Shown one piece after another: positions 16,985-60,575 of a DNA stretch of 64,000 bases (position 1 is the stretch's first letter; each line of letters starts with the position of its first letter). The stretch is from NCBI GenBank assembly GCA_021442155.1, contig JAKCPB010001392.1, forward strand, positions 1 to 64,000, written 5' to 3'. This DNA is from Cymbidium sinense. Lineage: Eukaryota; Streptophyta; Magnoliopsida; Asparagales; Orchidaceae. The notes beneath the pieces are model-generated. The model was not told the DNA's origin, made no database searches, and saw nothing but the letters and a program-made list of their open reading frames with translations. A program made the position numbers and the translations under genes.

Positions 16985-17090
16985 TAGCTCACGCGTGTGG
17001 CGGCGGTGGATCAACTTTACACATGCGTGCTGAGGGTCCAATTAACTTGTAACCTCATGGATGGCACGTGGCCTGCGCTTTAATCTCGAT
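16985..17090. promoter_or_regulatory. GC-richer patch with a G-box in the LTR
   Basis: This is a local island of GC in an AT-rich LTR, with CACGCGTGTGGCGGCGG and a perfect G-box CACGTG at 17,065-17,070 (GGCACGTGGCC). The equivalent place in the solo LTR has ACGTGACGTG at 9449-9458 inside a similar patch, so ACGT-core elements are present in both copies. It could be part of the LTR promoter. I see no convincing TATA box that fixes a start. Confidence 0.4.
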
Positions 17091-18189: not shown

Positions 18190-19020
18190 TTGATAGGGTT
18201 TGATGCTCATGTTGACCCATTTAGGTCAAAATGGGTCAACTTGGGTCAAGTTGACCAATAGGTCAAAATTACCAAGGTTGGTCAAGTTCATATGACCATT
18301 TGAAATGTTTTGGTGGATTTGGTTTGATTTAATTTGGTATATATTTGATTTTTTCTCATATGACTTCATTTAGGTCAAATGGGTCAAGTTGACCTATTTG
18401 ACCCATTTGACCTATTTTGAGGTAAGGGTAGGTTTAGGTTAGTCATATGGAGTGGATTAGTATCTTTGTTTCCAATCAATTTGGGTTATTCAATTTTGGC
18501 TCAACATGACCCTTTAGGTCATGTTGGGTAGGTCCAATGGGTTGGTTTAGTTGGAGGCTTTGGTCAAGTTCCACAAGTGATTTGGAATGGACTTGACCCA
18601 TTGGTTTCAATTAATTTTTAGATCAAGTTTTGACACATTTTGACCCTTTAGGTCAAAATGGTTCAACTTAGGTCAAGTGAGCCAATTGGGATGGGTTGAG
18701 CTCAAATGTTGGCTTCAAGTTCAAACATAGGTCATGAGTGAACTTAGATCAATGGTTTCAATCATTTTGGCCTATGGTGGAATTTGGCTATGTAAGGTTT
18801 CATTTTGGGTTAAGTGTTGACTTGGTCAACCCTTAGGTTTGACTTGGTTTGACCCAATTTGATTGATTGATCATCCATGATGATTGTTGATCATGATGAG
18901 AGGCAAATGAGTTTGGTTCAATCCAATTTGTTAGGATCAAAATTTGGCTCATAAGTACTTTAGGTCACTTTGGGTCAAGTAAGCCTAAGTGGGTCAAATG
19001 GCTTGGTCAAAGCTTGATTT
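18190..19020. promoter_or_regulatory. Inverted GGTCAA/TTGACC (W-box-like) cluster in the 3' LTR
   Basis: I count about 20 TTGAC(C/T) or reverse-complement cores between 18,200 and 18,860. Some pair as perfect hairpins: 12 bp arms at 18,211-18,222 and 18,229-18,240, and 16 bp arms at 18,372-18,387 and 18,398-18,413. TTGACY is the WRKY-binding W-box core. The motif density and hairpins are observed; regulation is inferred. Confidence 0.5.
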
Positions 19021-19149
19021 GAAGTTGTTGATCTTGTATATGGACTCATGATTGAAATATAAATCCATTTACAAGTGGTTTGAAGTCAAATGGGTTTTGA
19101 TCCATTTAAAATTTCATATTCAAAGGAAGAATATGAAAGGGTTTTGGGT

Positions 19150-20000
19150 TTGATTTTTATTTGAGTTTTGATTGAAAGATTGAAGTTTGGATTTATATAT
19201 GAGCTGATTGTAGGATTGATTGAACCATGAGAGAAAATCAAGGGTTTTGATTTGAAAGTGATTTGGCTAAGTTCAAGATTTTGACTTGAAAGGCTTAGAT
19301 TGATTTTGAATGGATTTGAGTTTGATTTTGAAATTATTTTGATTGTTTGAATTTATATTTCATTTATATATGTGAATATGAGAATATAAATATCATGAGA
19401 AAATTTCAAGGATTTGAAGTGATTTAATCATGATTTAGGTTAAATCCTCTAATAGGAATTTAAAGGATTTAAGGAAATTTTTAAATTGAAATTTAATTTT
19501 TGAATTGGATTGGATTGATTTATATTTATATTTAATTTATATATGAGAGTACAAATAAGTTTTGAGAAAATCCCATGAGTTTGAAAAGGTTTGATCATGA
19601 TTTAGGTTAAATCCATTAAGGGAATTTAAAGGATTTAAGAGAATTTTAAGTCGAAATTTAATTTTTGGATTTGATTTGGTTGATTATATTTTTTATATTT
19701 ATATATATATAATATAAATGTGAATATAAATAAGTTTTGAAAATCATGAGTTTGAATAGGTTTGATCAAGATTTAGGTTAAATCCATTAAAGAGAATTTA
19801 AAGGATTTAAGGAAATTTCATGAATTGATTTTGAATTTTGAATTTGATTTGATGGGTTTGAATTTATATTTCATTTATATATGTGCATATGAATGAGAGT
19901 TTAAATGAGGTATGAGAAAATCTCAAAGGTTTGAAGAGGTTTGAATCATGATTTTGGTTAAGTCCTTTAGGAAAATTGGACTTAGCAAAATTTGGACTTA
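19150..20000. repeat. Five tandem subrepeats of about 170 bp in the 3' LTR
   Basis: Units begin with TTTATATATGTGAATATAA-like sequence and end with GGTTTGATCATGATTTAGG and TTAAATCCATTAAAGG, near 19,190, 19,360, 19,530, 19,690 and 19,860. A matching array lies in the 5' LTR at 36,460-37,250, so the expansion predates the insertion of this element. Confidence 0.85.
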
Positions 20001-20348
20001 AATTTTTATGGATTTTGATCATGGGTTTTAAATGTTTCAATCATGGATTTTTCATGGAATTTCAATCATGGAATTGATTTGAGTTTGGAGAAAATCAATT
20101 AGATTGATTTGGAGTTTGACTTGAGGAAGGAAGGTGAGGTTTAAGCTAAGGGTAGAAATTTTCCTAACACCCTAAGGCATGACCTATTCATATGGCTAAC
20201 TCTTCTAAGTCTCTAGGGCTGGGTTGGGTATCCACCTAATCACTAGATGTGTCTTAAGACTAAGGAACTCTTAAAGTCTAAAAGGAGTCGTATGTCTAAG
20301 ATGGAGGGGTTGAGAGCTCATTCTAAAAATGAGATCAACAAAGGCCGC

Positions 20349-20391: not shown

Positions 20392-20799
20392 TATTAACCA
20401 AAATGATCAACAAAACTAAGAGATCACAAGACCTAATAGAAACAATCTATTCTTAGGCCAAAGAATAGTAAGAATCTAGAGCTTAGTGCAATGTGGCTCT
20501 ACTGATGTCTAACACATAAGAGAGAGGGAAGAATCCACTAAGGGATAGAGTGTGAACCTTCCACTAGGAAAGCAAGTTCAAGTCATCCACAAGGGCATGA
20601 AAGGTTTGGTTTGATTTGAATCTCACTAAGGAGAAACATATTTGATTTGAATTCCACTGGGGAAGTGGGTTGAATTTGTTTCAAATTTTGTTAGGTTTGA
20701 ATTTTTAGATGAACCCTTTTTGGTTTTCAATAGAATTAGTAGGAGCCATGGAGGCTAAGACCTAACTCAATTTTACCAATCCAAAGGGGTGGTCTACTA

Positions 20800-22760
20800 A
20801 GCACATAGTAGGACTAACCAACCAAGGGATGCCTTTCAGTATGCAGCAACTGTACTAAGAAGAAAGCACAGTAGACTTATATCCTCCAAGTAAGGACCAT
20901 TTGCTGGGGTAATCTATTGGCAAGACAACAGATTGAACCCAACCTAGGGCTGACTATTGAGTGAATGCCACTGGGGGACTTAGATCAGCTCAAAGATAGT
21001 CAAGATTGATTTCATTTAGATTTGTTTATTTTGATTATGATGGATCCCATAGGTTTGATGAACTGCACTGAGTAGGGGCCATGGAAGCCAAGACCTAACT
21101 TAGATTTATCAATTCAAAGGGAGTAGTCTACAACCACAAGGTAGATTATCCAACCAAGGAAATGCCTTTTGGTACACAATGGTCAAGTCTTAAGAAGAAA
21201 GCATGGGGACTTACATCTTCTAGAAATAAGGAACCATTGGGGAGATCAGTTGCTTTGGGCACCAAATCAAACCGACCTAGACTATTGAGTGAATGCCATT
21301 GGGGGACTTAAATCAGCTCAAGAATAGTCAAGATTAATTTCATTTTTAATTTGTTTATTGAATTCCAGGTTTGCAATAGATCACCGAGAAGGAGCTTATA
21401 GAAGCCTAGATCTATCTCAAATTTACTGAACCAAAGGGAGTAGCTTCCCGACCGATGGGAGAACTATCCAATCAAAGAAGTGCCTTTCAGTTTGCAATGA
21501 TCAATTCAAGGTTTGAAAGCTCAGGGACTCACATCTTCTACTAGAAAAGATCACTGGGGTGATCAGTTGCTTTGGGAAATAAATTAAACCCGACTTAGGG
21601 CTGCTTGTTGATTTGTGACAATCATGCTAGAAAGAATGCATCATAGTATTACATCTTTCAAAATAAGATGATTGTTGGGGTAACCTATTTATGTAAAAAT
21701 AGATTGAACCCGGCCTAAGGGCGACTATGGAGTGAGTACCGTCCTAGGGATTTATCTCAACTCAGGTAGTCAGGCAATTCGTATAGGGAGTTCTGCTAAC
21801 ATTACCTTAAAAATAAGATGCCTTCTTAAGAGAAGGGGCGCTTTGGGGGCTTAAATTCCTAATCCACAAGTGAATTAATTTTTGTTTGTTTTAGTTTGTT
21901 CTAATATGGACCCTGTTAGTTTGTGAGGGATCAAACTAAGAAAGAGCTTATATCAGCCTAGACCTATCTTAGATTTGCTGAACCAAGGGTAAATTTATGC
22001 ATCCACTGAACAAATTCTCCAACCACAGGGGTGGCTACTAGGAAGGAACTATCAATCCAAAAGTAACAGTAGTGTCTAAATGGGGTCAAAGTTGATCCAA
22101 ATAGAGTGCCATGGGGATGGGTGGTAAAGGCTTAATCCAACACCAGAAATGACATGGTCATATATCCAATAGGTATTGGTGTCCAACTCAAGGAGCATGG
22201 ACTCATCCGAGTGGTGTACCAAGTGAGTCGCTATCAGTATAGTGAACATCAACCAGCCTAAGGTGCCTACCAATTTGCAACAATCATCCTAGGAAGAACG
22301 CTCAAGGACTCACATCCTCCTATAGCAGAATTGATTGTTGGGATTTGTCTTCTGCTCGATAGGTGTTATCCGACCTAGGGAAAATACCGAGTTAATGCCA
22401 CTGGGGAGTTATATCAACTCAAAAGAAGTCAAGAGGAAAGGAGCCTCTGGGGTACTTATCCTAAACCTCAAAATATACTAGACCTAATTAGAGCATGATA
22501 GTTAGTTCAAGAAGAAAGCACGAGGACTCACATATTTGTAAATGAAGTCAACATGAGGTAGCTTTCTTGGTGGGTGTGAAGAATACCATTAACAAGGCTC
22601 TTGGTTTTTTGCAATGATCAAGTTAGGAAGAAAGCTCAGGGACTCATATCCTCCAACAAATGACCACTGGGGTGACATACTTGCGAGGTAGCATGTAGAC
22701 CCGACCTAGAGCATCTAATGAGTGAGTGCCACAAAGGGTTTGCTCCCACATAAATTAGCT
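20800..22760 (-). repeat. Tandem repeat array in the 3' region of the minus-strand element
   Basis: About seven irregular copies share AGGAAGAAAGC, GGACTCACATCCTCC, TGGGGTGA, GACCTAGGGC, TGAGTGAATGCCACTGGGG and TTAGATCAACTCA. AAGAAAGC-type cores lie near 20,854, 21,190, 21,508, 21,625, 22,290, 22,508 and 22,627. The array lies between the end of integrase and the 3' LTR. The host element carries the same array in the opposite orientation at 42,030-43,690, so it is a family-level feature. Long 3' untranslated tandem arrays are known for Tat/Ogre elements. There is no coding potential. Confidence 0.88.
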
Positions 22761-23139
22761 TGAGAAAAAAGATTTATGTTTATTTTGTGCATATGTTAAA
22801 AGAAATAGGTTGCCTCCGAGGGACTCTTTTACCTTAAAACATCTTGGAATTATGAAATGATGCCAGATGGAAACAAGAATTCCCACCAAGAAAGGATGTC
22901 AGGTTCTCTCTAACTTAGTTAATTTAATGAAATAGGATGCCTCTCGTTATCTTACACCTATTCTAAAGAATGGAGATTGTGTTTATGTTGTGAAGAGGGA
23001 TAGGATGCCACCGGGGACTCTTACACCTACCTAAACACGCACATGGATTCCGAATAAGCAAACAACACTTGAAAGAAGAGAAGATTTGATGAATGGAATC
23101 AGATTTTGTTCTTTTATTAATGATATATTTTTAAATATT
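22761..23139 (-). other. Non-coding tail downstream of integrase
   Basis: This stretch holds more degenerate copies of the 3' array (GGTTGCCTCCGAGGGACTCTTT near 22,810, a similar copy near 22,930 and another at 22,990-23,030). An AT-rich segment follows, leading to the integrase stop region at about 23,140. No gene is seen. Confidence 0.6.
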
Positions 23140-24190
23140 TTATTTCATGGGTAATATTTCTTTAGATAGAGCCCATTAATTGAAGCAGTGTTCTCCTTTA
23201 CAATCAATAAGGCGATAAGATCCTCCTTGGTAGGCCTTCTCTCATACAGGGCCTTCCCAAGTGGGTTCAAACTTACATCCCATCTTTCGATGGGCAATAA
23301 TTAGTCTCCTTAGGACTAACACAAGTTCTCCTACTCAGAAAGGCTTGAGGCGGACAAGCTTGTTGTGAACTTGAATCATCTTGGCCTTGTACAACTTGAG
23401 GTTCTGACATGCTCGTAGATGACTCTCCTCCAAACCTTTGAGCTCTTCTAACCACAACTTTGCATTCTACTCTGTAGTGATCTTGTTACCCAGTGCTATC
23501 CTTAGTGATGGGAGTTGAACTTCTAAAGGAAGCTTGGACCCATACACTAAGGAAAATGGGGTAGGAGATGGATTTTGGAATGTGGGTGGTAGGCCACAAA
23601 GCTTCAACCAAGCCTTTCGTTCCACTATTTTGTTCTCATCAAGAGTCTTCTTGATTATCAGATGAGAGTTTTGTTGAATGCTTCTACTAAACCATTAGCT
23701 CTGGTAGTAGATGGTGGAGTATCTCCAATCTATATAATGTCTTCTAGCTAAACGATCTTCATGCTTTTGAATGCAGTACCATTATCAAATATAATTCATC
23801 GAGGCACCCCAAACCTATATATGATATGGTTCCTGAAAAATTGAAGCACATGCTGAGATGTGACCTCTATGAGTGGGATGGCTTCCTCCCACATGGAAAA
23901 GTAGTCGGTAGCAGTTAAGATGAACTGATGCCCCTTGGAGGAAGAAGGATCGATCAAAATTATAATGTCGGTACCCCAACACTCAAATGGCCATGAAGCC
24001 AAAGTAGGGTGTAGAATGTTGGGTGGTTGGTGGAGGACCACACCGTGTACCTGACATTGATGGCATCTCTTAGCTACATCCATGTAATCTGTGATCATAG
24101 AAGGCCCATAATATCCAATTCTTTTGATCTTCATCTTCATCTTTGGACCAAATTGATGGGCTCTATACAGACTTGAGTGTACCTCAGTTA
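23140..24190 (-). pseudogene. int: Integrase of the minus-strand element, broken
   Basis: Integrase inserts the cDNA into nuclear DNA. The segment 24,140-23,796 is open and shows MKMKIKRIGYYGPSM, then KRCHQCQ (the CxxC half of the HHCC zinc site), then WGTDIIILID with the first catalytic Asp at 23,967-23,969. After a stop, IIFDNGTAFKS gives the second Asp (23,784-23,786) and GLVEAFNKTL the catalytic Glu (23,682-23,684). The D-to-E spacing is 33 residues instead of 35, and a stop lies inside it. The C-terminal part (LKLYKAKMIQ, FRVGELVLVLRR, FEPTWEGPY) runs to about 23,200. All three catalytic residues survive, but stops and shifts make it inactive. Confidence 0.92.
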
Positions 24191-24559
24191 TAATGCCACA
24201 GGCTTCATGTTTATCCCAACAAGAGCATAGGAGAGAGCTCTCTATTTCACCTGATGAACTTATGACTTTTCTTGAAATAGTTTGCTAGTGTTCAAATAGT
24301 CTATAAACAATTGCCTCCAATCCAGCTCCTTGTCCATTTTAGCAATGACAACCTCCCCTTTAAGAGAAAGTCTCTCGATGATTTCAAAATTAATAAGGGA
24401 TATGCCTTATCTATTTTAGACCCTTATTAAAATGGACTCATCTTCCAGACATGCCAATTCTTTGGAAAGTTTGGCCAAGGCATCTCTATTATCTACTCGG
24501 GGAACCTTGTAGATGGTGACTTCAGGAATTTGGGCCAACAGCTTCATGGTATACTCATA

Positions 24560-24850
24560 GTAATGATGAAGCTTGTGTTTGAGGACCTAGTAGGACCTAG
24601 CAATCTGGTTGATGACCAACTGAGAATCCTCAAAGATGTTGATGCTCTTGACACTAATAGTGATGGCTAACTCTATATTGGTAATCAAAGCCTCATACTC
24701 AACTTTATTGTTGGTGCAGGGGTTGGAAAGATAGTATGAGAATCTCATCACATTGTAGTTTGGAGTTAGAAGAACTATTCTACCCCTACCTTTCTTGGGA
24801 TAATAGATCATGGTGCTTCACCTTTAATAAAAGAAGCAGCACCATCAAAA
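24560..24850 (-). pseudogene. Archaeal-type second RNase H (aRNH)
   Basis: The open stretch 24,811-24,587 contains LSNPCTNNKVEYEALITNIE and NIFEDSQLVINQI. These are the N-N-x-x-E-Y-E-A-L and D-S-Q-L-V motifs of the additional RNase H found between the ordinary RNase H and integrase in Tat/Ogre-type plant elements. This places the element in the Tat lineage rather than Athila or the chromoviruses. The domain would remove RNA from the RNA-DNA hybrid. The acidic residues of these motifs are still visible. Upstream parts of the domain are shifted out of frame. The host copy is at 40,160-40,440. Confidence 0.88.
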
Positions 24851-29166: not shown

Positions 29167-30018
29167 CTACTCATGGTTTCTTTCATAGACCTTTTGGGAC
29201 TTTTGCTTGGGCAACTGATCTGGAAAAGGCAACTGTTTAGCCTCTCCTTGTAGACTAGCCACCTTGTTTATTAGCTTCTCAAATGTCTTGATAGTGAAGC
29301 CCTTAAGCATGAAGGTGACCGGGCCATGAATATTCTTCAAGAGAATCTCAATGGTATTGTTACTATGGTTCACACTTCATACCAAATCGAGAATATAATC
29401 AATAAGTGACTCACCGGAGTGCTGTTGTGCTATAACAAGATCACCTATAGTAACCCTTTGTTGAGCTCCAGCAAATCTCTTGATGAAGAGTTTCTCAAAC
29501 TCAACAAATATCTTTATTGAACCATTGGGCAGTTCAACATGCCAATCAAAAGAAATACCCGCTAGGCTACTAACAAAGAGTCTAATGAGTAAAGCATCAC
29601 TGCCACCTGTGTTACAATAACTAGCCCTAAAGTGAGTTATATGCTGCCTAGGGTTCCCACTACCATCAAATTTCTTGAAGGAAGGAGGCACGAAACTATT
29701 GGTATATCGGATAGCATCAAATTCCTTTGGATAGGGTCTATCCTTTGGAACCAATGATCCTCCTCGGGCTTGAGCCAAAGCTTCCTTCACCTGCTTCTCA
29801 ACCATGGATTTTAGATCTTTTTCTTGTATGGAGGTACTATCCACTACCTTCCTATACAGGCTAGTGCTACCTTTCTCAATGGGAGGTAGAGTCTTAATTA
29901 GGTCTAATACATGCACTTGCTCAAGTGGACTGACATCAACTGTAATAGGATGAACTGAAGGGGCTTGTTTTTGAAGCACTGACACTATTGTTAACAAGTC
30001 TTGTAATTGATGTGCCAT
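29167..30018 (-). pseudogene. gag: gag core (capsid region) of the minus-strand element
   Basis: The longest open stretch in the window (30,018-29,377, 213 codons) begins MAHQLQDLLTIVSVLQ, continues through a K/E-rich segment (KDLKSMVEKQVKEALAQA) and then carries PPSFKKFDGSGNPRQHITHF, FVSSLAGISFDWHVELPNG, and EKLFIKRFAGAQQRVTIGDL. This is the retrotransposon gag domain that follows a P-x-F-x-x-F-D-G start. After a stop the next piece, 29,373-29,167, gives MARSP/IHGPVTFMLKGFTIKTFEK and SLQGEAKQLPFP, which continues the same domain. The match to the host at 2867-3180 is clear. The core is largely open, yet the protein as a whole is interrupted. Confidence 0.92.
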
Positions 30019-30019
30019 C

Positions 30020-31707
30020 CTATCAATCTTCTCATCCTTCTACCTTAATTAAAGTCAGGTGTTGGGCTGATTCTACGGTGTCCTCTTGATCAACCTCATC
30101 ACCTTCCATGGCTATTTCTCCCCAGAAGAGATCCTCTAGTATGTGCATACTCAGAATCTCCCATCAAGTCATCTTCATTGGGATTGAAGCTGACTCTCTC
30201 TTCATCAGACCAGGTATACCCTAAGATCTCCTTCTTCTCCATAAAATAATGTGCAACTATCTCATCTAAGGAATAATCTAACTCAGTAGGGTTAAATAGT
30301 TTAGGCTGACCAGTATGATCGCTATCATGAATTGAGAGGCACCAGACTTCTCCTATCACTGGGGAGTCAATCTTATGTGGACTTTACTCACTAGAAGAAT
30401 GATACTCTTGACTTCTACTAGTTGTAACAGGGGTAACAATCCTAGGATGATCCTCTACCACTATTGCAAATGAACTATCATCTAGAATATATGTGATAAT
30501 ATCATCATCTCTCCACATCCAGTGAGTTGGTGAAGGAACGATCGATGCTCGGGGTCGCCACTCCTTCACCACCTTGGGGTAGAAGGTCAAGCACCTACCA
30601 TAATGGGTGGTGTAGGAGTAGGATCCCTTGGTCATAGGATCATCAACGGGGTATGTTTATCCTCGGATGCAGTCTTCATGGCCTTAGATGGAATGGGAGA
30701 TGTTGTAACTGTGATGGCGGAAGGGGTAGAGCGTGGGGTGGAGACACCACGACTCTCTATATAACGCCCTATGGTGGCTGGTCCCAGAGAAGAATCTATC
30801 GGTATGGTAGATGGGTAGCACGCCGAGCTAGAACATCAACCAAAGTAGAAGCGGCTGACTGACGGCTAAACCTCCATTGCTCTCTGCTAGTAATGTGTGA
30901 TGAATGGGCCTCACGGGCCCTCTCTTGATGAATCTTCCTTCTACTATGTGGGGATAATGATCAAAGGTCAACCGACTCACATGTATGCTTTATGTACCTG
31001 GCATAGAATAATTCAGAGGCTGACATACGACCTCTTACTCCTGAAAACTGCTAGATATAAGTGCACCACTGGAGGAGGTGATGAACGATTCCTTTGGCAT
31101 CCTCTCTGTCTGATCCCTAGAGAGGATAAAACTAGTTTTCTATAACTAGTGGTGAACTGAAGATGGGAGACTCATCCATGGCTGATCGAGCTGCTTCCTT
31201 TAGCTCCCTAGCTATCCTAGTGTGGAATCGTTTGATCATATGGTTCTTGTTCCTACGCTAGGTGTGGGTAGGATGAGAGGAGTGCAAGCTAAACCAATAT
31301 TCAAATGTGGGGGAGGCAAGCCCTGAAAATAGAGGAGCCTTACCCTTGGAGGGTACATATGGTAGGGTGCTAGCCCGCACCTGGGCAACATGAGCAACTC
31401 TAGGATGAACGCAACGTCGATATGTGCTTGTTGTATGCTAAAGTCTATGGTATTTCCACAACTTTCCTCTTCAATGAGGAGACATCCAAATCTGAAGGTA
31501 AGTCTATCCTGATGACCAGCTTCTACCCGATCACCTTCATCCTACTGAATGTGGTTAGGGGAATGCCCTCACAAGTGATCTTGGCCCCCTCAAATATCGA
31601 TCAAAGTGAATCAAGTGGGTATGGTCTAGACTGGGGAAGTTAGTCTGATTTAAAGTTAGATCCATACCATGAGGGAAGGTGAAGACAAATTTTTGGGATC
31701 CAGCCAT
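30020..31707 (-). pseudogene. N-terminal gag or upstream ORF remnants
   Basis: The probable first Met is at 31,707, giving MAGSQKFVFTFPHGMDLTL and about 50 codons before a stop. Further open pieces follow: 31,370-31,140 (KGKAPLFSGLASPTFEYWF, MIKRFHTRIARELKEAA), 30,635-30,384 (MTKGSYSYTTHYGRCLTFYP) and 30,359-30,099 (acidic, DYSLDEIVAHYFMEKKEIL). Together they form about 1.7 kb of formerly coding DNA upstream of the capsid domain. Ogre-type elements have an extra ORF upstream of gag; this could be that ORF fused or adjacent to the gag N-terminus. I recognise no conserved domain in it. The host copy lacks this part. Confidence 0.6.
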
Positions 31708-31789
31708 ATTCAAACTGATTGAACTTTCTACCTTGCGAAAAAGAATCTACAATGAGCAATGAATTTGTATCAATTTTTTATCTCCATAG

Positions 31790-33700
31790 ATTTTGAATTT
31801 TGAATTTTGAAGATTTGAACCCACATCCAACAACTTGGAAGTGTTAAGTGGGGTTTAAATTTATTTAAGAAGATTGATTGAAAGAGGAATTTGAATATGA
31901 ATCCAAACTTCAACAAATTTAGGTATGTTGAAATATGGATTCAAAATTTTTGATAGGATGCTTCCATAGGTTCATTGATCTTTTGAATTTGAATTTTTGT
32001 GATTTTGAGGACCCTTTCCTTTAACAAATTTGGGTATGATAAAGTAAGGGTCAAATGATTTGGTTTTGTTAGATTGATTTTGAATTTCACTTACTTAGCA
32101 AATTTAGGTATGCTAAATGAAGTAAAAGTGATAGTTTCTTTTTGTGAATTTTGTTTTGATTTTGAAAATTTTGGAGTTCTTACTTAGCAAATTTAGGTAT
32201 GCTTAGTGAAGAATCCAAGTGTATATTGTTTAATTTTTGAAAATAGAATTCTTAGAAAATATAGGTATGCTAAGAAAATCCTAAGTGTTTCATTTGTTTG
32301 GAATATTTTGATTTTTGAAAAGGGTAGAACCCTTAGCAAATTTGGTATGCTAAGGGGATCCTAAGGTGATTCATTTTTTTATTGATGTGTTTTGAAAGTG
32401 GAAATCTAACTTTAGCAAATTTGGTATGCTAAAGGTGAAATCCCACTTTTTTTTGTGAAATGGAAATTTCACTTAGCAAATTTGAGTATGCTAATTGAAA
32501 TTCCAAATGGTGTGTTTAAAATTTTGATTTCATTTTTGGTTTTGAAAATGGAAACTTCTCCTTAGAAAATTTGGTATGCTAAGGGAAGAATATCCAATGG
32601 TGTTTGAGAAATTTTTGTTCTGACTTTGGAAACTTCACCTAATAAATGCTAGGTGAGGTTCCAAAATATGTTTTGAAAATGTTTGATTTTGATTTGAAAA
32701 CTTCACTTAGCAAATTGGAGTATGTTAAATGAAGTTCCAAATATTGTTTGAAAATTTTGAAATATGATTGTTGATTTTGATTTTAGATTTATAAAGTTCA
32801 CTTAACAAATTTGGGTATGTTAAGTGAAATTCCAAAATGTTGTTTGAATTTTTATTTTTTTTTGGATTTCGGATTTGTAAACTTTACTTAACAAATTTGG
32901 GTATGTTAAATGAAGTTCCAAATGTTGTTTGATAAATTTTGAAATATGATTGTTGATTTTTTTTATTTTTGGATTTACAAACTTCACATTAAATTTAGTA
33001 TGCTAAGTGAGGTTCCAAATGTATTTGAAATTTTTTGAAATATGATTGTTGGAATTTTAATTTTTGGGGACCTCCATTCAATAAATTTAGGTATTGTGGA
33101 ATGGAGATCAATTTTATTTTTGAAATATGAAATTTTTGTTTGTGATTGTTACTTTTGAAAGAGGTATTCCAACTTTAAAACATATGTGAGATATTTTTAA
33201 GTGGGATTTCCTAAAAGATATTTTATTTTTAGTTGGGAATGAAATCTACATTTAATAAACTTAAGTATATTAAATGAAGATGTTCATGTGTACTTTTTGA
33301 AAATTTTGATTTTGTTTACAAATGAACTTTCTATTCAATAAGGGTGAGTGTATTGAAATAGAAAAATTCATGTATGCTTTTGAAAATTTTTATGATTATG
33401 ATTGTGATTTTTGAAAAAGATGATTGCTCATTTATTTTGAAAATGAGGGTTTCATCAAAGTGAATTGAAGGAAGATGTTCATTTGTGGTTTTGAAAAAAA
33501 TATTATTAATTTTATTTTTGAAAATCTCTACATGTAACAATTATGGAAATTGTTAAATGAAGGTGACAAAATTTTGTGGAAAAAATTTTATTAAGTGCAT
33601 TTTTTGAAAAGGTGCTTTTGTAAAGGCAAAGTTATTTATTGTAGATTTATTATTTTAGGATGAACCTTTACTTATCATGAAAATGATAAGGAGGAAGTCT
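31790..33700 (-). repeat. Leader (5' UTR) array of about 18 hairpin-forming tandem repeats
   Basis: Units of roughly 70-110 bp each hold an inverted repeat round a short AATTTAGGTA-like loop. The usual form is ACTTAGCA-loop-TGCTAAGT. Arms differ between units but still pair: CCCTTAGCA with TGCTAAGGG (32,330-32,356), TTCACTTAACA with TGTTAAGTGAA (32,798-32,829), TGGAAATTTCA with TGAAATTCCA (32,461-32,505), CTCCATTC with GAATGGAG (33,072-33,106), CATTTAATA with TATTAAATG (33,245-33,280), and CTTATCAT with ATGATAAG (33,671-33,690). The array fills the space between the primer binding site and the first Met of the element, so it would be in the RNA leader. There is no coding potential. Confidence 0.88.
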
Positions 33701-33925
33701 TAAAGATGTTTCTTTTTATTTAGATCTTTTCATTTTACCCATTGGAGAAACAGTTTTAAGACAAAAAGAAATATCCTAAAATCTAAAGATGTTGGCTAAC
33801 TCAACCCAAGAATGATATGAGCTAAGTGCCAACGGAAAGAAGGATAGTCTCAAATTCATACCAAAGTATAAACTCACTATCAATACTTAAAGATAATGAT
33901 CGTTTACCAAAGATGGTGAGAGGAA
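33701..33925 (-). other. Leader between primer binding site and hairpin array
   Basis: No repeat or gene is seen. The sequence is mixed, moderately AT-rich, and contains no open frame of note. Its position between the presumed primer binding site and the repeat array makes it the start of the untranslated leader. Confidence 0.55.
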
Positions 33926-33946
33926 CCATCCCCAGTGGAGTTGCAA
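33926..33946 (-). promoter_or_regulatory. Primer binding site-like sequence
   Basis: On the minus strand this reads TTGCAACTCCACTGGGGATG, a few bases after the 5' LTR ends. It resembles the TGGCGACTCYRCTGGGGA type found after the LTR in Tat-group elements, with changes in the first bases. It would prime minus-strand DNA synthesis from a tRNA. The tRNA cannot be settled by eye. Confidence 0.55.
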
Positions 33947-35739
33947 TAAAAATCTATGGTTAAAAATTTCTATGGGGTCTCGGAGTTGCCTTTCAAATAT
34001 GTTGGTGAGAAATGAAAGAGGACATGACCCTTATAGCAATTCATCTTTTTAGGATGCCACGTAGATCCATAGATATACTTATTCAGGTGATCAAGAATGT
34101 CATCAAGGTATAGTGTATTATCTCAAAAGATAGAAGTCACTACCCTTTAATGGACCTAATCACCTCAGTAAGGACTCCTAAGGATAGTGGGTCTACATAT
34201 GTATCAGAGATTCTTTCCCTACTTTACATGGAAAAGTAAATTAGAATTTATTTTAAATTGGGGTCGCTAAGTTCCCAATAGGGGCAAGCCTCCATAGTTA
34301 ATTACATCCAAAGGGATGGGCTCCCTTAGGAAAACTCTCGATTAAGGTAAATGATCATTGTCTCTAAATATTTCAATAGGATAGGACTATTAATTAATTG
34401 GTTTATGTTTGAAGATCAAAATGGGACTGATCAAAATAGGGAGTTATTACCGAAGCCAAAATAAGAGATAAGTAGGATATTCCCACGATGCTAGGAAACC
34501 TAATGAGCATCTCAAACTATCCTATAGTTGGGCTTTACATTTTAGAAATTGATTTAGTTTATTTGAGTTACATTTTTCATTAGAATTTTAAGACTTAGGA
34601 TTCCTGAACACAACATTAAAGAAATGCCTAAGAGGTGAGGAATTATTCTTATGATCCACAGAAGTGAGAAGCAACCTTAGAACCTAAATCTAGGGAGCTT
34701 TGGCGAGGGCTGGAAGCACAACCTAAATCTAAGGTGAATAGTGGGTGATTGGTTTTCCTCCACATGAGAGGACAAACCACCCGATACTTTGGACATACAA
34801 CTACCTGGGGGTGGCCGCAAACTAACTCATAGAATTTTAAATACATGTAGGCAAGTCATTATACTTATGCATGATAGCTAGGCTGTTATTATTTAGAAAT
34901 AGGCTATGTCCTTAAACACACTCCCTAAAGAGACTAGATCATGTAAAGGGACATGGTTCAAATGACCTAAATTGAATGCAATTTCAAATTTCATTTTATT
35001 TTCATTTTTGGACAAATATTTTGACTTAGGCTAATAGGATTTTTTATGACTAATGCATGAGAAAAAAGATTATTGGCCAAAATCAATGAGAAGTGAGGAG
35101 GTGAGTTTCCACCACGGCTCTCAAAGGTTAAGCTGAGTTTCTCTAGAAAAGGAGGAAACCCTCCAATCAAGAGTGAAATAAGATGCATTTGTGCATGATA
35201 TTACAAATAAAATGCTCATTTAGCTAAGGGGTTGCTAATTCTTTTTCTTGATTTTAAACCTAAACTTTATGTGAGGTTATGAGTTGTTTAATTTGAATTT
35301 GAATTGTTAAGTTGGGTAAAAGATTAATTTTTCCCAAAAGAGCCTAATCCACATCCAAGCCATACATAAATCAAGGAAGAAATTAGAAAAATAATGCCAC
35401 TTAATGCAAAAGCTAAAAAAATCATTAATTAATTTATAAAGCTAATCAGAAAAAGAATAAATGACTATTATGGTCGGGCACCACTGCACAAACCCAAAAT
35501 ATCGAATATGGGTAGCCGAGCTCTACCCTTATACAACCTAGATTATAAATGAATCAAATTACAATTTAAGCAAAGGAATTTATTATTATGGAGGTCTTCA
35601 AGCTTTATTCTTCTTTCTTCCTTCTTCTTTCTTCTTTCTTATTCTTCTTTTCTTCCTTTGGTTCCTTCTTTTGGATGATTGGAAGGTGGATGCTCCAAGG
35701 TTTAGGTTTAGGTTAGGTTAGTCACATGGAGTGGATTGG

Positions 35740-36330
35740 TATCTTTATTTCCAATCAATTTGGGTTAAGTTCAATTTTTGCTCAACATGACCCCTTTAGG
35801 TCATGTTGGGTCTAAGGTCAATTGGGCAAGGTTGGGTCTAGTTGGCCAATTGAGGCATTCGTCAAGTTCCACAAGTGATTTGGAATTGACATGACCCATT
35901 AGTTCCAATTAATTTGGCTTAGATCAAGTTTTGACACATTTTGACCCTTTAGGTAAAAATGGGTCAACTTGGGTCAAGTGAGCCAATTGGGCTAGGTTAG
36001 GCTCAAATGTTGGCTTGGTCAAGTTTAAACATAGGTCATGAGTGAACTTAGATCAATGGTTTCAATCAATTTGGCCTATGGTGGAATCTGGCTATGTAAG
36101 GTTTCATTTTGGGTTAAGTGTTGACTTGGTCAACCCTTAGGTTTGACTTGGTTTGACCCAAATTTGATTGATTGATCATCCCATGATGATTGTTGATCAT
36201 GATGAGAGGAAATATGAGTTTGGTTCAATCCAATTTGGGTAGGATCAAAATTTGCCTCATAAGGGTACTTTAGGTCACTTTGGGTCAAGTGAGCCTAAGT
36301 GGATCAAATGGCTTGGTCAAAGCTTGATTT
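35740..36330. promoter_or_regulatory. Inverted GGTCAA/TTGACC cluster in the 5' LTR
   Basis: This is the same motif cluster as in the 3' LTR at 18,480-19,020; the first part of the cluster is missing because of the 4 kb deletion. TTTTGACCCTTTAGG and GGGTCAACTTGGGTCAAG are examples. W-box-like cores are observed; a regulatory role is inference. Confidence 0.45.
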
Positions 36331-36459
36331 GAAGTTCGTTGATCTTGTACATGGACTCACAATTGAAATATAAATCCATTTACAAGTGGTATGAATTCAA
36401 ATAGGTTTTGATCCATTTGAAAATTTCATATTCAAAGGAAGAATATGAAAGGGTTTTGG

Positions 36460-37250
36460 GTTTGATTTTTGATTTGGGTTTTGATTGAAAGATTGAAGAT
36501 TGGATTTATATATGAGCTTCTGATTGTAGGATTGACTGAACCATGAGAGAAAATCAAGGGTTTGGCTAGATTTGAAAGTCATTTGGCTAAGTTAAAGATT
36601 TTGACTTGAAAGGCTTATATTTGATTTTGAATGGATTTGAGTTTGATTTTTGGAATTGGTTTTGATTGTTTGAATTTATATTTCATTTATATATGTGAAT
36701 ATAAATGATAATATAAATGGATCATGAGAAAATTTCAAGGATTTGAAGTGATTTAATCATGATTTAGGTTAAATCCATTAAAGGGAATTTAAAGGATTTA
36801 AGGAAATTTTTAAATTGAAATTTAATTTTTGAATTGGATTGGATTGATTTATATTTATATTTCATTTATATATGGGAATATAAATGAGAATACAAATAAG
36901 TTTTAAGAAAATCCCATGAGTTTGAATAGGTTTGATCATGATTTAGGTTAAATCCATTAAAGGGAATTTAAAAGATTTAAGGGAGTTTTAAATTGGAATT
37001 TAATTTTTGGATTAGATTTTGTTGATTAATATTTATATTTCAATTATATATATGAATAAAAATGTGAATATAAATAAGTTTTGAGAAAATCCCATGAGTT
37101 TTAATAGGTTTTGATCAAGATTTAGGTTAAATCCATTAAAGGAATTTAAAGGATTTAAGGAAAATTTCGTGAATTGATTTTGAATTTTGAATTTGATTTG
37201 GTGGGTTTGAATTTATATTTTGAAATCACAATATAAATAATGTATGAAAA
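36460..37250. repeat. Five tandem subrepeats of about 170 bp in the 5' LTR
   Basis: Copies near 36,500, 36,670, 36,840, 37,025 and 37,200 share TTTATATTTCATTTATATATG, ATGAGAAAATYYCA and GATTTAGGTTAAATCCATTAA. They pair one-to-one with those at 19,150-20,000. Confidence 0.85.
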
Positions 37251-37642
37251 TATTAATGTTAAGGAAAAATTATGGACTGCTTAAGAAAATTTGGACTTAC
37301 GATATTTAGATGGATTTTGATCATGGGTTTCAATCATAGATTTCAATCATGGAGTTCAATCATGGAATTGATTTGAGTTTGGAGAAAATCAATTAAGATT
37401 GATTTGGAGTTTGACTTGGAGGAAGGAAGGTGAGGAAAGAATTAAGCTAAGGGTAGGGAAGTTTTCCCAACACCCCTAAGGCATGACCTATTCTTATGAC
37501 TAACTCTTCTAAGTCTCTAAGTCTAGGTTGGAGTATCCACCTAATCACTAGATGTGTCTTTAGACTAAGGAACTCTTAAAGTCTAAGAGGAGTCATATGC
37601 CAAAGATGGAGGGGTTGAAAGCTCATTCTAAAAATGAGGTCA

Positions 37643-38880
37643 ATACTCCCTCAAAATCAACAAGTCTATTCTCGTGAACTTGGCCAAAGTTTAAGAATAA
37701 AAGTAAAAGGAAAAGAAAAAGAAAGAGAAAAAGAAAAATAAAATAGAAGAGAAAATGAAAAAGAAATAAAAGGGAGTAGAAATAGACTTAGAAGAGGAAG
37801 TGGAGCCTTACATTAGATTCCACCCGCATTTTGTTACTCCATTCGAACATATGGGTAGGACGACCAGATCTCCACCAGGAAGATGAAGAGGGTAGTCAAG
37901 AGGCAATCCCAGGGGTGGAAAACCACCTTATTGGCCACCCAATAGAAGATATGTCCCATCTACCAAGAGTACACCTGTTATCCATATAGACATAGAATCT
38001 AGTTCACAGGATGAATCTTATATAGTTAGCACCAACCTCTTCTAGGTAGTTGGAATTCCTTTGGAGGTGACACTTGAGCAGATAGCGATGAAGATCGGGC
38101 TCCAAAGCAAAGCATAAGTGTATCCAAGTCTATATGTGAAACAGTTGGCATCAGTTGGGAATCTTAGCTCTAACCCAACTTTCCTCTCAAAAAGGTAAGT
38201 GGTTGGTAGTTAAGGAAGCCCCTAAGTCATCCACAGGTCTGAAGACTTAGAGGTTCTTTCTAGGAGCATCATCCTCAAGTCAAAAAGTTGATGTAGAACT
38301 TGAGGATGATTCATTTATAGATTTAATAGAATTACTTTTTTTTGGTACTTTCCTTATGTTCATAATTTAGCAAAGAAATGGTTAATCCCATATACTTGGT
38401 CAAAGCACAAGTCAGATTACTTTGAAAGAATATGGAAGAACAAATGCAAAAGCTCTCAATCAAGACTGGACTAGGATTGGTATAGTGAGTCGATCGATGA
38501 TGATGATTACATAGTCATCACCAATTATTTGGAATCGATAGGTTTTTCAAATCACACTAACTCATATGAGGAGCTATCTTATAAACTTTGATGATCCAGA
38601 TGATTTTGAAGTCAAAGATGCACGAGTTCAAGAAGAGATCAAGTCAACCATCGATGAGCTCAAGAAATCAACTTAGGAATTGAAGAAGATCCGCCCAACA
38701 TACATCAGTTCTTTGTTGAATGAAATTGAAAAACTATGACTTAGTTAGGCTATTGATGAGTTTAAGGACTCTTTATAGGAGTTATGAAGAGATGCAGATT
38801 GGCTCTCACATAGTGGTCCATAAACTAGAAATAGAGCCTACTAACCCTATCAAGCAAGCTCTAGATGCATGTGATTAGAC
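37643..38880 (+). pseudogene. Protease-RT linker of the host element (third piece)
   Basis: The host resumes here with CTCGTGAACTTGG and the A/G-rich AAAGAAAAAGAAAG tract, collinear with 27,310-27,200 read on minus. Then comes GATTCCACCCGCATTTTGTT, matching 27,180. From 38,340 to 38,690 pieces of the acidic linker are readable (TWSKHKSDYFERIW and, out of frame, DEYIVDDD-like residues). It is heavily interrupted by stops. No separate function is recognised. Confidence 0.75.
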
Positions 38881-39720
38881 ATAGAATAATAGGTCATTTA
38901 TGAAGTCAAAATTGATGATGTTGGCTTCATCCGAAGAAAAAAATACCTACGGGTTAGCCAACATCATCCCAATTAAGAAAAGAATGACCAAATTCACATA
39001 TGCATCAATTTTAGGGATTTAAATAAGGCATGTCTAAAGATGAATTTCCACCACCAATCTGAGAGGACATTGGGTCATCTCATGCAATTCTCTTTCATGG
39101 ATGGCTTATCTAGATATAATCAAATAAAGATGGCCCCTGAAGATGAATGAAACACTACTTTTAGAACCTCGATCAGAATCTATTGCTATAAGGTCATGCC
39201 TTTCAGCCTTAAAAATGATGGTGCTACATACCAGGGGGCTATGACTCGAATCTTCGATGAACTCATTAATCATCAAGTTGAGTGCTATGTCAATGATCTC
39301 ATGATCAAAAGTAAAGAAAGGAAGAACATCTCTTTGACTTAGAGTAGTTTTTGAATAGTTAAGATAATTTAACCTCAAAAGAACCACAAGTGTACATTGA
39401 GTAGCTTGAGAAATTCCTTGGGTTTATTATCCGACGAAACAAAATCAATCGGAGAATATCAATGTGATATTAGAAATACCACCCCCTAAAATTTAACTCC
39501 ACTTAGATCATTCCAAGGGTGGTTGGCGTATCTAAGATACTTTATATCCAACCTATCAGGAAGATGTCAACCATTCTCAACACTTATCAAAAAGGATGCC
39601 AAGTTTAAGTGGGATGACAAGTGTGAGCATGCCTTCAAATACATCAAGCATTACATGAAGACACTATTAGTTATTAGCCCCTATCTGGGGCACTCATACT
39701 TTACATTGCTATGTTAGATG
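38881..39720 (+). pseudogene. Reverse transcriptase of the host element, broken and mutated
   Basis: It is assembled from several frames: ICINFRDLNKACLKMNFH, FSFMDGLSRYNQIKMAPEDE (first catalytic Asp kept), FRTSIRIYCYKVMPFSLKN, then ECYVNDLMIKS at about 39,280-39,312. The YVDD box has become YVND (codon AAT at 39,292-39,294), so even a repaired frame would lose a catalytic aspartate. The open piece 39,523-39,717 gives MAYLRYFISNLSGRCQPFST and KKDAKFKWDDKCEHAFKYI, the RT thumb and connection. Order and motifs are the same as in the minus-strand copy at 25,190-26,300. Confidence 0.92.
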
Positions 39721-40150
39721 ACTCCCTTTTGCTTTGTTGGCCCAAGCTAATGATGAAGGGAAGGAAAATGCACTCTACTACCTTATCATCTAATCATGAG
39801 GCTAATTATCCACCCATTGAGAAGCATTGCCTAACTTTAATCTTTGCATCCCAAAAGCTACAACTACATGCTTCCTCATATGGAACTTAATCTCTAGGAT
39901 CAATCCACTATAGTATCTCATGAAATGGTCAATCTATCGGATGGTTGGCATGATGGTCCATGATCCTCTCTCTCACAATTTGACATTACCTGTACCCCTC
40001 CATGCGATGAAAGGATAAGCAAATTTCTTAGCAGCACACCCACTTCTTGTTGACTCTCCACTTAGTGATGATCTCCCCAATGAACAAATCATGAATATAG
40101 AGGATACTAGCATTCACTATTGGGAGATGTACTTTGATGGTATGGCTTTC
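39721..40150 (+). pseudogene. Ribonuclease H of the host element, decayed
   Basis: Multiple stops occur. Alignable pieces such as HEMVNLSDGWHDGP and ISKFLSSTPTS correspond to the RNase H-connection part at 24,900-25,190 of the minus-strand element. The HPLPVDSPLSDDLPNEQIMN-like linker near 40,045-40,095 is shared. No catalytic residue can be confirmed. Confidence 0.72.
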
Positions 40151-40159
40151 TCTAAAAGA

Positions 40160-40440
40160 GGAGAATAACCATAATCTAATATTCCAGGAAAGGCAGGGGT
40201 AGGAATAGTTCTCTTAACTCTGGACTACGATGTGATGAGATTCTCATATCATTTGTCCAATCCTTGCACCAACAACAAAGCTGAATATGAGGCTCTAATT
40301 GTCGAGTTAGCCATTACTCTAAGCATCTAGAACATCAACATCTTGAGGATTCTCAGAATTATCAACCAAATCATGGGTCTATAAGGTTATAAAGCCCAAG
40401 CTCCATCACCATAAGTACACCATGGAGTTGTTGGCCCAAA
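40160..40440 (+). pseudogene. Archaeal-type RNase H of the host element
   Basis: It reads LTLDYDVMRFSYHLSNPCTN and NKAEYEALIVELAITLSI, then a stop, then NINIL and IINQIMGL. The AEYEAL motif is intact. The DSQLV box is partly lost (only the INQI part is left). It is collinear with 24,590-24,850 and supports assignment of the host to the same Tat lineage. Confidence 0.85.
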
Positions 40441-40780
40441 TCTAGAGGTTACCATTTATAAAATTCCTCAGGAGAGAGTTGCAGCATATGCTTTAGCCGC
40501 TTGCCAAGGTTGACATGTCCAAAGGATGAGTCTATATCAATAAAGGTCCAAAATAGACAAGTCTTATCCTTATTGATATTGAACTCATCAAAAGTACTCT
40601 CTCTTGAAGGGGAGGTTGCCATTGCCAAGAAGGATGAGGAGTTGGGTGGAGGCAACCACTCATGGATTACCTAAATAAAGACAAACTACCTCAAAGAAAC
40701 TCAGATGAAGCAAAGAGCACTTTCACGCTCTTATGGATGGTGTCTTATACAATCTTTCGATCATATGTGGTTATGTTGTT
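40441..40780 (+). pseudogene. Linker between aRNH and integrase, host element
   Basis: This is a low-conservation linker of pol with stops in all frames. GGTTATAAAGCCCAAGCTCC lies at its start. From about 40,690 it leads into the integrase N-terminal region (SYLHSLMDGVLYNLSIICG-like residues at 40,725-40,765). No independent gene is seen. Confidence 0.55.
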
Positions 40781-41830
40781 TTAGACAAGCATGAAGCCCA
40801 TAAGATCGTGGGAGAACACTTAGGATTATGTGGAGCCAACCAATCGGTTTGAAGATGAAAGCTAAGATCAAGAGATTAGGATACTACTGGCCATCGATGA
40901 TCAAAGATTGCATGGATACAACTAAGCGATGCCACCAATGTCAAAATACGGTGTGGTCCCAACATTCTACATCTTACATTGGCCTCATGGCCATTCGAGT
41001 GTTGGGGTACCGACATAGTGGGTCTGATTGATCCTCCTTCTTCCAAGGGTCATCGGTTCATCTTAGCTGCTACTGACTACTTTTCCAATGGGCAAAGGTG
41101 ATTCTGCTCAGAGAGGTCACAGCTCAGCATGTGCTCCAATTTTTTAGGAACCATATTTTATATAGGTTCAGAGTGTCTCGATGAATTATGTCTAGTAATG
41201 GTACTACATTTAAGAGCATCGAGATCAACAACTTTGCTCGGTGACACAACATAAAATGTAGATATTCTACCATCAACTAATTGAGGGCAAATTACTTAGT
41301 ATAAAACTTCAACAAAACTCTCATCTGGCTAAAGAAGACACTCAACAATAATAAGCGATGGTGGCATGAGCAGTTAGTGAAGCCTTGTTCTACCCACATG
41401 ACTCAATCACTCATTTCTCCTTAGTGTGATGGGTGCAAAACCATTATACCATTAAACGTCCAACTCTCATCACTAAGGATAGTTGTGGGTAGCAAGATCA
41501 TAATAGAGTAGAATGCCAAGTTACAGTTAGAAGATCTCAAAGGTTTTGGAGGAGAGACACCTGTGAGCATGCCAAAACCTTGAGTTGTACAAAGCTAAAA
41601 TGATTCAAGCTAACAACAAGTTGGTCCATCCAAGTGCTTTTCAAATAAGAGAGCTTATTTTAGTTCTAAGGAGACTTATTATTGCCTATCATAAGATGGG
41701 AGGCAAGTTTGAACACACATAGGAAGGCCCTTTAGCCATATAGAAGGCCTACCAATGAGGATCTTATTATCTTTATAATCATAAGGGAGAGCACCATATT
41801 CTTCCAATCAATGAGCTCTACTAAAAGAAA
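40781..41830 (+). pseudogene. int: Integrase of the host element, active site damaged
   Basis: The open part 40,828-41,031 shows [20 protein letters not shown] and KRCHQCQ, the zinc half-site. The next frame gives [19 protein letters not shown], with the first catalytic Asp (GAC at 41,012-41,014). The second Asp region reads IMSSNGTTFKS, with Ser (AGT, 41,194-41,196) where the minus-strand copy has Asp. C-terminal pieces (LELYKAKMIQ, LVLRRLIIAYHKMGGKFE) continue to about 41,720. The enzyme could not work: an active-site residue is gone and the frame is broken repeatedly. Confidence 0.9.
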
Positions 41831-42029
41831 GATTATAAATCATGTTTGAAAATAATTATCATAAATGAAAATTTTATTTGAATTAAATCTCTTCAATGTC
41901 GAAAGTAATCTTTTTTGTGAATCTGCCATGATGTGTTTAGGGTAGGTGTAAGGAACCCGAGAAGCATCCTATCCTTCATTGACACAACACAAATATAAAC
42001 TACACTCAAACATATAAAACAAACACATA
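41831..42029 (+). other. Post-integrase non-coding stretch, host element
   Basis: AT-rich sequence leads from the integrase stop region to the 3' tandem array. It is similar in position to 22,770-23,139 of the minus-strand element. No gene is seen. Confidence 0.55.
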
Positions 42030-43690
42030 TCTTTTATCTCGGGCTACTCTGAGTTGAGATAATGCCCCCAACAGCACTCACTTTCATGGCTGCTCTTGGT
42101 GATGTCTACCTATGTCTGTCTGGTTTTCTTGCTTTGGGGGATGTAATTCTGCTATGCTTTCCTTCCTTACTTTGCCACAACAAACTAATGAGCACCTTGT
42201 TAGTTTGGTAGGCCTTATTGTGTGGTCAGTAAGCTACCTCATGTTGGCTTTGTTTAAGGGGATGTGAGTCTACTACACTTTCTTCTTGGATTAGCCTTCA
42301 TTCACTGACTGGGTCAATTATATTTGAGGTTTAAGATAAGTCCCCTAGTGGATCCTTCCCTCTTGAGTGCTTCAAGTCTAGGTCCAATCCTTCCTCGAGG
42401 CTCCCTACTTAGTAGTCACTCTAGGTCAGATAATATCTATCCTGTCGATGATAGACTATCTCGATGATCAGTTCCACTTGGAAAGTTGTTAGCTTACATG
42501 CTTTCTTTCTAGATTGATCATTGCATATCGACAGGAACCTTAGGTAGGTTGGTTGTCACTATACTGATTGATAAACCACTCATGCTAACAGATACACCTT
42601 AGGTTGGTTGGTTCTCGCACCTTAGGATACACCACTCATGGAAGATGTAAGTCTGCCACGCTTTCTCATTGAGTTTACCACCATACATAAATAGGCTTTC
42701 TTTTCTAGGGCTCAGGATAACGCCCCTAGTAGCACCTTCATTGTGGGAACTATATTTGGATCACATCCTTTATGACCCCATTTAGACACTACGCAGGTTA
42801 CTATCGGATTAGATAGTTACCCATTCATAGTATCTATCCCTGTGGTTGGAGAATCTATCATGTGGATGTGCAGATTCTCCCTTGGTCCAATAAATTTGAG
42901 AAAGGTCAAGGCCTACATAGCCCCTTCTCAGTGTGGTCCCTCGCACACCAATAGGGTACACACAAACATATAAATAAAATATATATTCACTTATGGATTA
43001 GGAGAACACTCCTAGTGGTACCTTTTCCTAAGCAGGCATCCTATCTTTAGGGCAGTGTTAGCAAAACTCCCTATAGGAATTGCTTGGCTACTCTTGAGTC
43101 AGTATAAGTCCCCAACAATATTCACTTAGTAGTTGCCCTTAAGTCGGGTCAATTTGTTGTGCTACCAATAGGTCACCTTAGTAGTTATTCCCTACTTTAG
43201 AAGATGTAAGTCGACTATGCTTTTTTTCAAGCACAGTAGTTGTACATTGAAAGGAAACCCCTTAGGTTTGCTAGCTCTACCCCACAGCCAGTAGACTATC
43301 CCAAGGGATTTATAAATCTGGGATAGGACAAGTTTAATATAGCCCCTTCTCAGTGGGCCCATCACACACTGATATCATTCATAAATTAAATCTATCAAAT
43401 TAGACTGAGCTCACATCACAACAGATATGCCCTCAATTCAAAAGCAAACTAAACCAAACAAACTATATCAAATCACATAAAATTAAGATAAAATTAATCT
43501 TGACAACCTTTGAGTTGACATAAGTCCCTAGTGGCATTCACTCAGTAGTCACCCTAGGTCAGGTTCAATTTGTTGTGCATCCGACAGGTCACCCCAACTA
43601 TTGTTCCTTACTTTGGAAGATGTAAGTCTGTTACGCTTTCTTCCTAGCACAGTCGTTGCACATCGAAAGGAAAAATTAAACCAACTTCTT
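42030..43690 (+). repeat. Tandem repeat array in the 3' region of the host element
   Basis: Six or so irregular copies are reverse complements of the 20,800-22,760 units. For example, CAGTAGTCACCCTAGGTCAG, GGAAGATGTAAGTCTG and GCTTTCTTCCTAGCACAG at 43,535-43,660 match 20,854-20,990. GATGTAAGTCTG-type cores lie near 42,270, 42,650, 43,205 and 43,620. It lies downstream of integrase, as in the other copy. Confidence 0.88.
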
Positions 43691-60560: not shown

Positions 60561-60575
60561 GTTGTATGTTTTTTA

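Follow-up and report, generated by a model that had tools for sequence, protein, structure and literature searches.

Retroviral leaders carry a few distinct stem-loops for packaging and dimerisation. The means by which plant LTR retrotransposons label their RNA for particles, dimers or translation appear to have been little explored. Large plant elements are known to have repeats of another kind in their non-coding parts: for Tat/Ogre/Retand elements, Macas and colleagues are said to have described, in 2009, tandem repeats within the 3' untranslated region. Excerpts of three papers place the tandem arrays of these elements in non-coding parts between pol and the 3' LTR (PMC7004042, PMC11963269, PMC6317226). 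Among orchids, the Phalaenopsis element Gypsy_Pa_2799 is presented, in the part of its description used here, as a giant Ogre-like Tat element of 25.5 kb with very long LTRs and a 2-ODD domain (PMC9289625). Here we analyse a 64-kb stretch of DNA from the orchid Cymbidium sinense (the window) in which an array precedes gag instead and is built of covarying stem-loops.

A probable Tat/Ogre-like host element

The array lies in a minus-strand LTR retrotransposon, probably of Ty3/gypsy type, that spans 12724-37645, about 24.9 kb including an insert of ~4 kb which sits inside the 3' LTR (Table 1). The LTR pair is 87% identical with gaps counted and differs by 240 substitutions in 3505 sites (6.8%; K2P 0.072), while the pentamers CTCCG (12719-12723) and CTCCC (37646-37650), which share four of five letters, form an apparent 5-bp target-site duplication. 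The gypsy order is gag, protease, RT, RNase H and, last, integrase; of these, the Pfam scans recovered on the minus strand gag, then RVT_3, then integrase, with the gag piece below its cut-off. Tat-clade elements carry a second RNase H, and Ogre a primer binding site antisense to tRNA-Arg. Here the RNase H-like signal is a single piece beside the integrase, for which RVT_3 is the best model, and no Pfam match to RT, protease, a separate first RNase H or a 2-ODD domain was found in the element pieces scanned; nor did the open frame with the candidate first Met match Pfam. Given the RVT_3 piece and the size of the element, we regard it as probably a Tat/Ogre-like giant Ty3/gypsy retrotransposon. 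The closest named relatives of both gag and integrase are orchid proteins. The sole homologue of the gag fragment among 241 candidates comes from Dendrobium nobile (62% identical, with 63% of the query covered), and the 57 integrase homologues include named ones in Dendrobium and Phalaenopsis, the closest, as well as in Ananas and Amborella. No relative of the element was found in the viral contig collections scanned, and a genome contig scan returned a single 22-mer match (Idiomarina), near chance expectation.

The window holds several other repeats. The nested elements are flanked by very long degenerate arrays (114-2864 and 44844-64000) whose repeats are of TTTAGGG/TTTAGG/TTTTA type, and the second array shows kilobase-scale internal similarity (44844-50212 versus 52364-57555, 74%). 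An older plus-strand relative of the element (2877-4850 and 37669-43670, with an integrase piece at 40804-41028) has apparently been split by later insertions, including that of the element studied here; its leader is absent from the window, and its 5' side consists of telomere-like repeats. A short G-rich tract, GGGGGGCGGGGGG, occupies 4880-4900, right before an LTR-like stretch starting near 4920. The LTRs contain tandem repeats of ~170-180 bp (36449-37220, 19137-19977 and 11650-12173) that include inverted repeats as well, the arms of which show, by eye, no covariation between units. Between the integrase and the 3' LTR, a position in which tandem repeats are frequent in Tat-type elements (20738-21598 here), self-BLAST detected a direct repeat offset by ~333 bp (20738-21280 versus 21071-21598, 71%); a tandem array at 20400-23700 was not among the TRF matches listed.

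The sense RNA of the element is the minus strand, on which the array (31897-33369) falls between the inner end of the 5' LTR at 33957 and the candidate gag Met. A sequence-only reading had assigned it to a giant retrotransposon's leader, ahead of the first Met, and our coordinates agree. From the LTR to the candidate Met the leader measures ~2.25 kb, and 23 ATGs precede that Met; given these ATGs, translation of gag would need splicing or ribosome bypass. The sense leader (31700-33956) is 9% G and 40% A, whereas G makes up 19% of the remaining internal region. A coding origin of 31700-33960 was rejected, as the three sense frames contain 40, 43 and 45 stops and the longest open run is 69 codons. 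A scan of 31600-34000 against Rfam 15 found nothing at E below 0.5 and ruled out a known RNA family as the identity of the array in that interval; the chance-level matches were to TtnuHACA14 (23.8 bits, gathering 100) and SmY (18.3 bits, gathering 39). A tRNA identity was likewise dismissed, a tRNA search having found none.

Eighteen homologous hairpins in the leader

We defined 21 inverted repeats as candidate units (U1-U21). All six inverted repeats quoted in the sequence-only reading are present, 0-4 bases from where it had put them. A covariance model trained on 14 units, with U5, U10, U14 and U16 held out, was searched against both strands of the 64 kb and recovered 18 minus-strand sites, U1-U18, with nothing outside 31897-33369 on either strand up to E = 10 (of the 28 rows returned, 10 were opposite-strand shadows inside the array). 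U19-U21 are unmatched; therefore the earlier count of about 18 units is right, and the homologous array stops near 33370 rather than at 33700, as had been proposed. Loop-to-loop spacing in U1-U18 is 61-111, against the unit size of 70-110 bp given earlier. We also trained a second pair of models on 7 units, one with and one without structure. The structure model scored higher in bits in all nine held-out units that both models matched and was better by E-value in six of the nine; U16 and U18 were matched by neither. Elsewhere in the window, none of the 7 matches to the structure model was better than E 0.23, and the sequence-only model gave a single match, at 16595-16614 (E 0.009).

Table 1. 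Coordinates of the hairpin units and of the host element's recognisable parts in the window
Feature	Position	Strand	Basis
3' LTR	12724-20340	(-)	Aligned to 33957-37645; broken up by insert at ~14391-18428
Integrase fragment	23799-24284	(-)	PF17921, E 6e-6, above cut-off
RNase H-like fragment (RVT_3), adjoins integrase	24590-24817	(-)	PF13456, E 3e-5, 24.4 bits, cut-off 21.6
Gag fragment (Retrotrans_gag)	29380-30039	(-)	PF03732, E 4e-4, 21 bits, below cut-off of 24.1
Open frame with candidate first gag Met (ATG 31705-31707)	31558-31746	(-)	Start assigned by position
Homologous hairpin array U1-U18	31897-33369	(-)	Covariance model, permutations, tree-aware null
Hairpin U1	31897-31944	(-)	53.4 bits, training unit
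Hairpin U2	32008-32055	(-)	54.7 bits, training unit
Hairpin U3	32082-32129	(-)	43.2 bits, training unit
Hairpin U4	32171-32218	(-)	53.2 bits, training unit
Hairpin U5	32239-32286	(-)	Held out, E 1.7e-4
Hairpin U6	32320-32366	(-)	42.5 bits, training unit
Hairpin U7	32399-32445	(-)	51 bits, training unit
Hairpin U8	32460-32507	(-)	58.4 bits, training unit
Hairpin U9	32549-32595	(-)	46.4 bits, training unit
Hairpin U10, shorter loop, stem retained	32626-32665	(-)	Held out, E 0.02; fold
Hairpin U11	32694-32741	(-)	53.8 bits, training unit
Hairpin U12	32789-32836	(-)	56.2 bits, training unit
Hairpin U13	32875-32922	(-)	59.7 bits, training unit
Unit U14, broken inner stem, apparent base loss in one arm	32975-33019	(-)	Held out, E 0.06; poorest pairing
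Hairpin U15	33065-33112	(-)	43.5 bits, training unit
Unit U16, divergent loop	33162-33212	(-)	Held out, E 0.4 (weak)
Hairpin U17	33239-33286	(-)	51 bits, training unit
Hairpin U18, diverged loop	33322-33369	(-)	37 bits, training unit
Inverted repeats U19-U21, membership unproven	33437-33690	(-)	Without match to covariance model
5' LTR	33957-37645	(-)	Alignment to 3' LTR; ends read by eye

Most units have a stem of ~8-18 bp with mismatches, and the linkers between them are A-rich and G-poor. In sense RNA the loop reads UACCYAAAUU, is 9-10 nt long and is nearly constant. It is the most conserved part of the unit: over 14 units the mean pairwise identity is 0.86 in the loop, 0.73/0.68 in the two arms of the inner stem, 0.52/0.60 in those of the outer stem and 0.62/0.59 in the flanks, against 0.48-0.50 in random stretches of the region. 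The outer stem thus remains mostly paired although its letters are near-random, while the loop is the most constant part, a pattern expected of hairpins whose shape and loop matter. Ten exact copies of the motif TACCYAAATT are present in the window, always on the minus strand, seven in the array and three outside it (11449, 36232 and 48137); the reverse orientation does not occur within the array. Pairing of the loop with another part of the element was considered and set aside, as no exact complement, with mismatches disallowed, exists in sense orientation.

Folding energy, which the sequence-only reading had proposed as a check, points the same way, with a mean z over 21 single-unit folds of -3.65 in sense and -1.93 in antisense. 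When the whole leader was folded, 14 of 21 stems had a mean pair probability above 0.77 in the sense RNA and 10 of 21 in the antisense, the low values including units with bulged stems, whose pairs escape an ungapped count. The linkers had an unpaired probability of 0.59 in sense versus 0.36 in antisense, so that in the sense fold many stems stand as islands between mostly unpaired linkers. These differences between the strands are partly due to base composition. The most stable single-unit sense fold is that of U1 (-20.4 kcal/mol), ~190 nt ahead of the candidate Met.

Unit-specific pairing of the arms

The sequence-only reading had claimed that the arms vary between units and yet pair within each unit, and permutation of the arms upholds this. 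No permutation paired as well as the units' own arms, either in 20,000 trials with the 21 units scored by duplex energy or in 100,000 with U1-U18 scored by Watson-Crick stems. The same result (0/100,000) was obtained for 14 sites picked by loop motif alone, a choice in which the arms had no part and which includes one site (31762), with a score of 0, that does not belong to the units. When all possible partners were ranked by Watson-Crick stem score, a unit's own right arm came first in 15 of 18 cases; ranking by duplex energy put the own arm first in only 9 of 21 units in sense and 10 of 21 in antisense. When arms were exchanged with those of the most closely related unit, the stem score fell in 15 of 18 units and tied in two, with the opposite outcome in U14, a unit that is mostly unpaired.

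Descent of the units from one another was taken into account with a tree-aware null, in which alignment columns evolved independently on the units' tree with an equal number of changes (3000 runs). The alignment comprised 18 of the 21 units (U16, U19 and U21 dropped), with hand gaps placed with pairing in view, which favours pairing. Watson-Crick pairs fill 84% of cells versus 48±5% under this null, doubly changed cells number 51 versus 8.4±3.3, and not one of the 3000 runs reached the observed value on any of four measures. Free decay of tandem copies, which the sequence-only reading had already judged inadequate, does not account for such pairing. Compensatory changes on the same branch number ~14, compared with a mean of 0.7 and a maximum of 2 when partner columns were shifted (13 shifts). 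Alignment with MAFFT, without hand gaps, gave a signal in the same direction at lower strength: 48 doubly changed cells versus 20.9±4.5 in shuffled alignments for 21 units (A1) and 37 versus 16.5±3.5 for 14 units (A2). Pairing in both peaked at zero slide when partners were slid. For A1, in which outliers are misaligned, RNAalifold returned no consensus structure; for A2 it predicted a stem of 8 bp that includes 5 doubly changed pairs. The measure of further pair types in A2 was unremarkable (85/500 shuffles). The 18 units are homologous, and their unit-specific pairing exceeds the tree-aware null, all of this covariation being drawn from paralogous units of one decayed element copy. The covariation check named in the sequence-only reading thus comes out in favour of pairing beyond phylogeny and composition.

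The LTR divergence indicates how old this pairing is. Had the stems been perfect at insertion, it predicts ~7% mismatched pairs, whereas we observed 13.7% (46/336 ungapped cells, plus 20 gap cells), a share lowered by the choice of stem extents for best pairing, and 16% (38/238) in the 14-pair set. As mismatches are about twice the decay prediction, most of the pairing is older than the insertion of this copy and was maintained by the lineage during its activity; at insertion, perhaps ~90-93% of stem positions were paired. Repair after insertion is not needed, since the observed mismatches exceed the decay prediction. Among the 46 mismatched cells, sense RNA would have G-U in 12 and antisense RNA in 8 (p 0.25), a weak test because about half of the 46 are expected from post-insertion decay. 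The transition share of the stem mismatches is no different from that of the LTR changes (p 0.24).

Candidate explanations for the array

We think it likely that selection on the element lineage kept an RNA hairpin structure, and we infer RNA rather than DNA as the target. The fuller reading, a string of ~18 selected leader stem-loops with loops as docking sites and Gag as first choice of partner, seems to us evenly balanced. On that reading, the 5' leader of the genomic RNA would carry ~18 stem-loops whose stems drift yet stay paired while the loop stays nearly constant; selection on the lineage would have kept the hairpin shape and the loop letters, and the present copy would have decayed afterwards. 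The loops would most likely be repeated docking sites for one RNA-binding partner, and the first candidate would be the element's own Gag, for packaging or pairing (dimerisation) of the genomic RNA. A multivalent RNA assembly signal, in which ~18 copies of one loop-recognised hairpin would act as a modular packaging/assembly code, is possible, and we put it forward tentatively. Taken by itself, a role of the hairpins in Gag binding and packaging is rather doubtful.

The main rival to selected docking sites is mutational upkeep, in which one arm would be copied onto the other by hairpin-templated correction, through quasipalindrome template switching either in the host or at the reverse transcription step, without functional selection. 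The mismatches show no sense-wobble excess, as such copying would give. However, upkeep does not predict a loop more conserved than stems and flanks, nor a single loop orientation, and it leaves the G-poor sense strand unexplained; we consider it unlikely. That the loop is conserved in one orientation speaks for selection, since arm copying gives no reason for it. Improbable in our view is a translation element, a chain of hairpins that would let ribosomes skip the leader to reach gag by shunt or internal entry. Plain scanning should fail in a leader so long and with 23 ATGs, and U1, the most stable sense fold, stands close before the Met, but the number of ATGs is near the expectation from base composition (estimated at ~28), the leader might be spliced out, and 18 like units exceed what a shunt needs. 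The ribosome shunt of caulimoviruses requires fewer hairpins than this. The sequence-only reading had also raised a source of small RNAs, which is unlikely on anatomy: usual Dicer substrates are longer than these short, mismatched stems.

The two remaining explanations do without a selected RNA hairpin. The array could be a structural by-product, the tolerated tandem growth of a functionless hairpin that itself promotes slippage of reverse transcriptase. Tandem repeats are known from the non-coding parts of Tat-clade elements, as far as the excerpts of PMC6317226 and PMC7004042 go, and the LTRs here also combine ~170-180 bp tandem repeats with inverted repeats. Independent drift, however, predicts ~48% Watson-Crick pairing where 84% is observed, and unit exchange at the conserved loop should leave mismatched chimeras, of which U14 and U15 are at most the examples. 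The covariation refutes this explanation unless the upkeep is mutational, and we rate it as very unlikely. Inverted repeats are palindromic in DNA too, and those of the LTRs could be cited alongside them in favour of binding sites for dimeric proteins in regulation or heterochromatin. Such sequence-specific binding does not require arm letters that vary while symmetry is kept, and the most conserved part of the unit is an asymmetric loop; palindromes acting at the DNA level are thus the explanation to which we give hardly any weight.

Comparison with known systems

If selected docking sites are the right reading, the ~18 natural variants in one locus amount to a ready mutational series, in which stems are free as long as they pair and the loop is not, and the array supplies a short RNA usable for testing Gag binding. 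A multivalent assembly signal, if true, would be a modular code that the papers listed in our literature search do not describe for plant LTR retrotransposons, as judged by titles and abstract openings. Further, RNA covariation could be read here from the paralogous units of a single decayed element without multi-copy alignments, an approach that offers a way to seek cis elements in transposons.

The retroviral leader resembles this one in having a series of hairpins between the 5' LTR and gag in which loop letters matter and stems may vary. It differs in that its hairpins are few and distinct whereas those here are ~18 and homologous. With Tat/Ogre/Retand elements the locus shares tandem arrays in the non-coding parts of a large, here probably Ty3/gypsy, element. 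The excerpts of PMC7004042, PMC11963269 and PMC6317226 used here mention no covarying leader hairpins, and the word "hairpin" is absent from the main text of the two papers on Tat-clade tandem repeats PMC7004042 and PMC11963269. The likeness to Gypsy_Pa_2799 lies in an orchid host, probable membership of the Tat family, giant size and very long LTRs, and the gag and integrase of the present element are closest to orchid proteins. The part of PMC9289625 used here describes no leader hairpins, the main text lacks the word "hairpin", and the 2-ODD domain of Gypsy_Pa_2799 has no counterpart in our Pfam scans of the element pieces. Among the matches listed in our literature search, the titles and abstract openings do not mention such an array of leader hairpins for any plant LTR retrotransposon. 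What is new, and was not found reported in the literature searched, is therefore the combination of two familiar features, the tandem array of Tat-type elements and the stem-loops of retroelement leaders.
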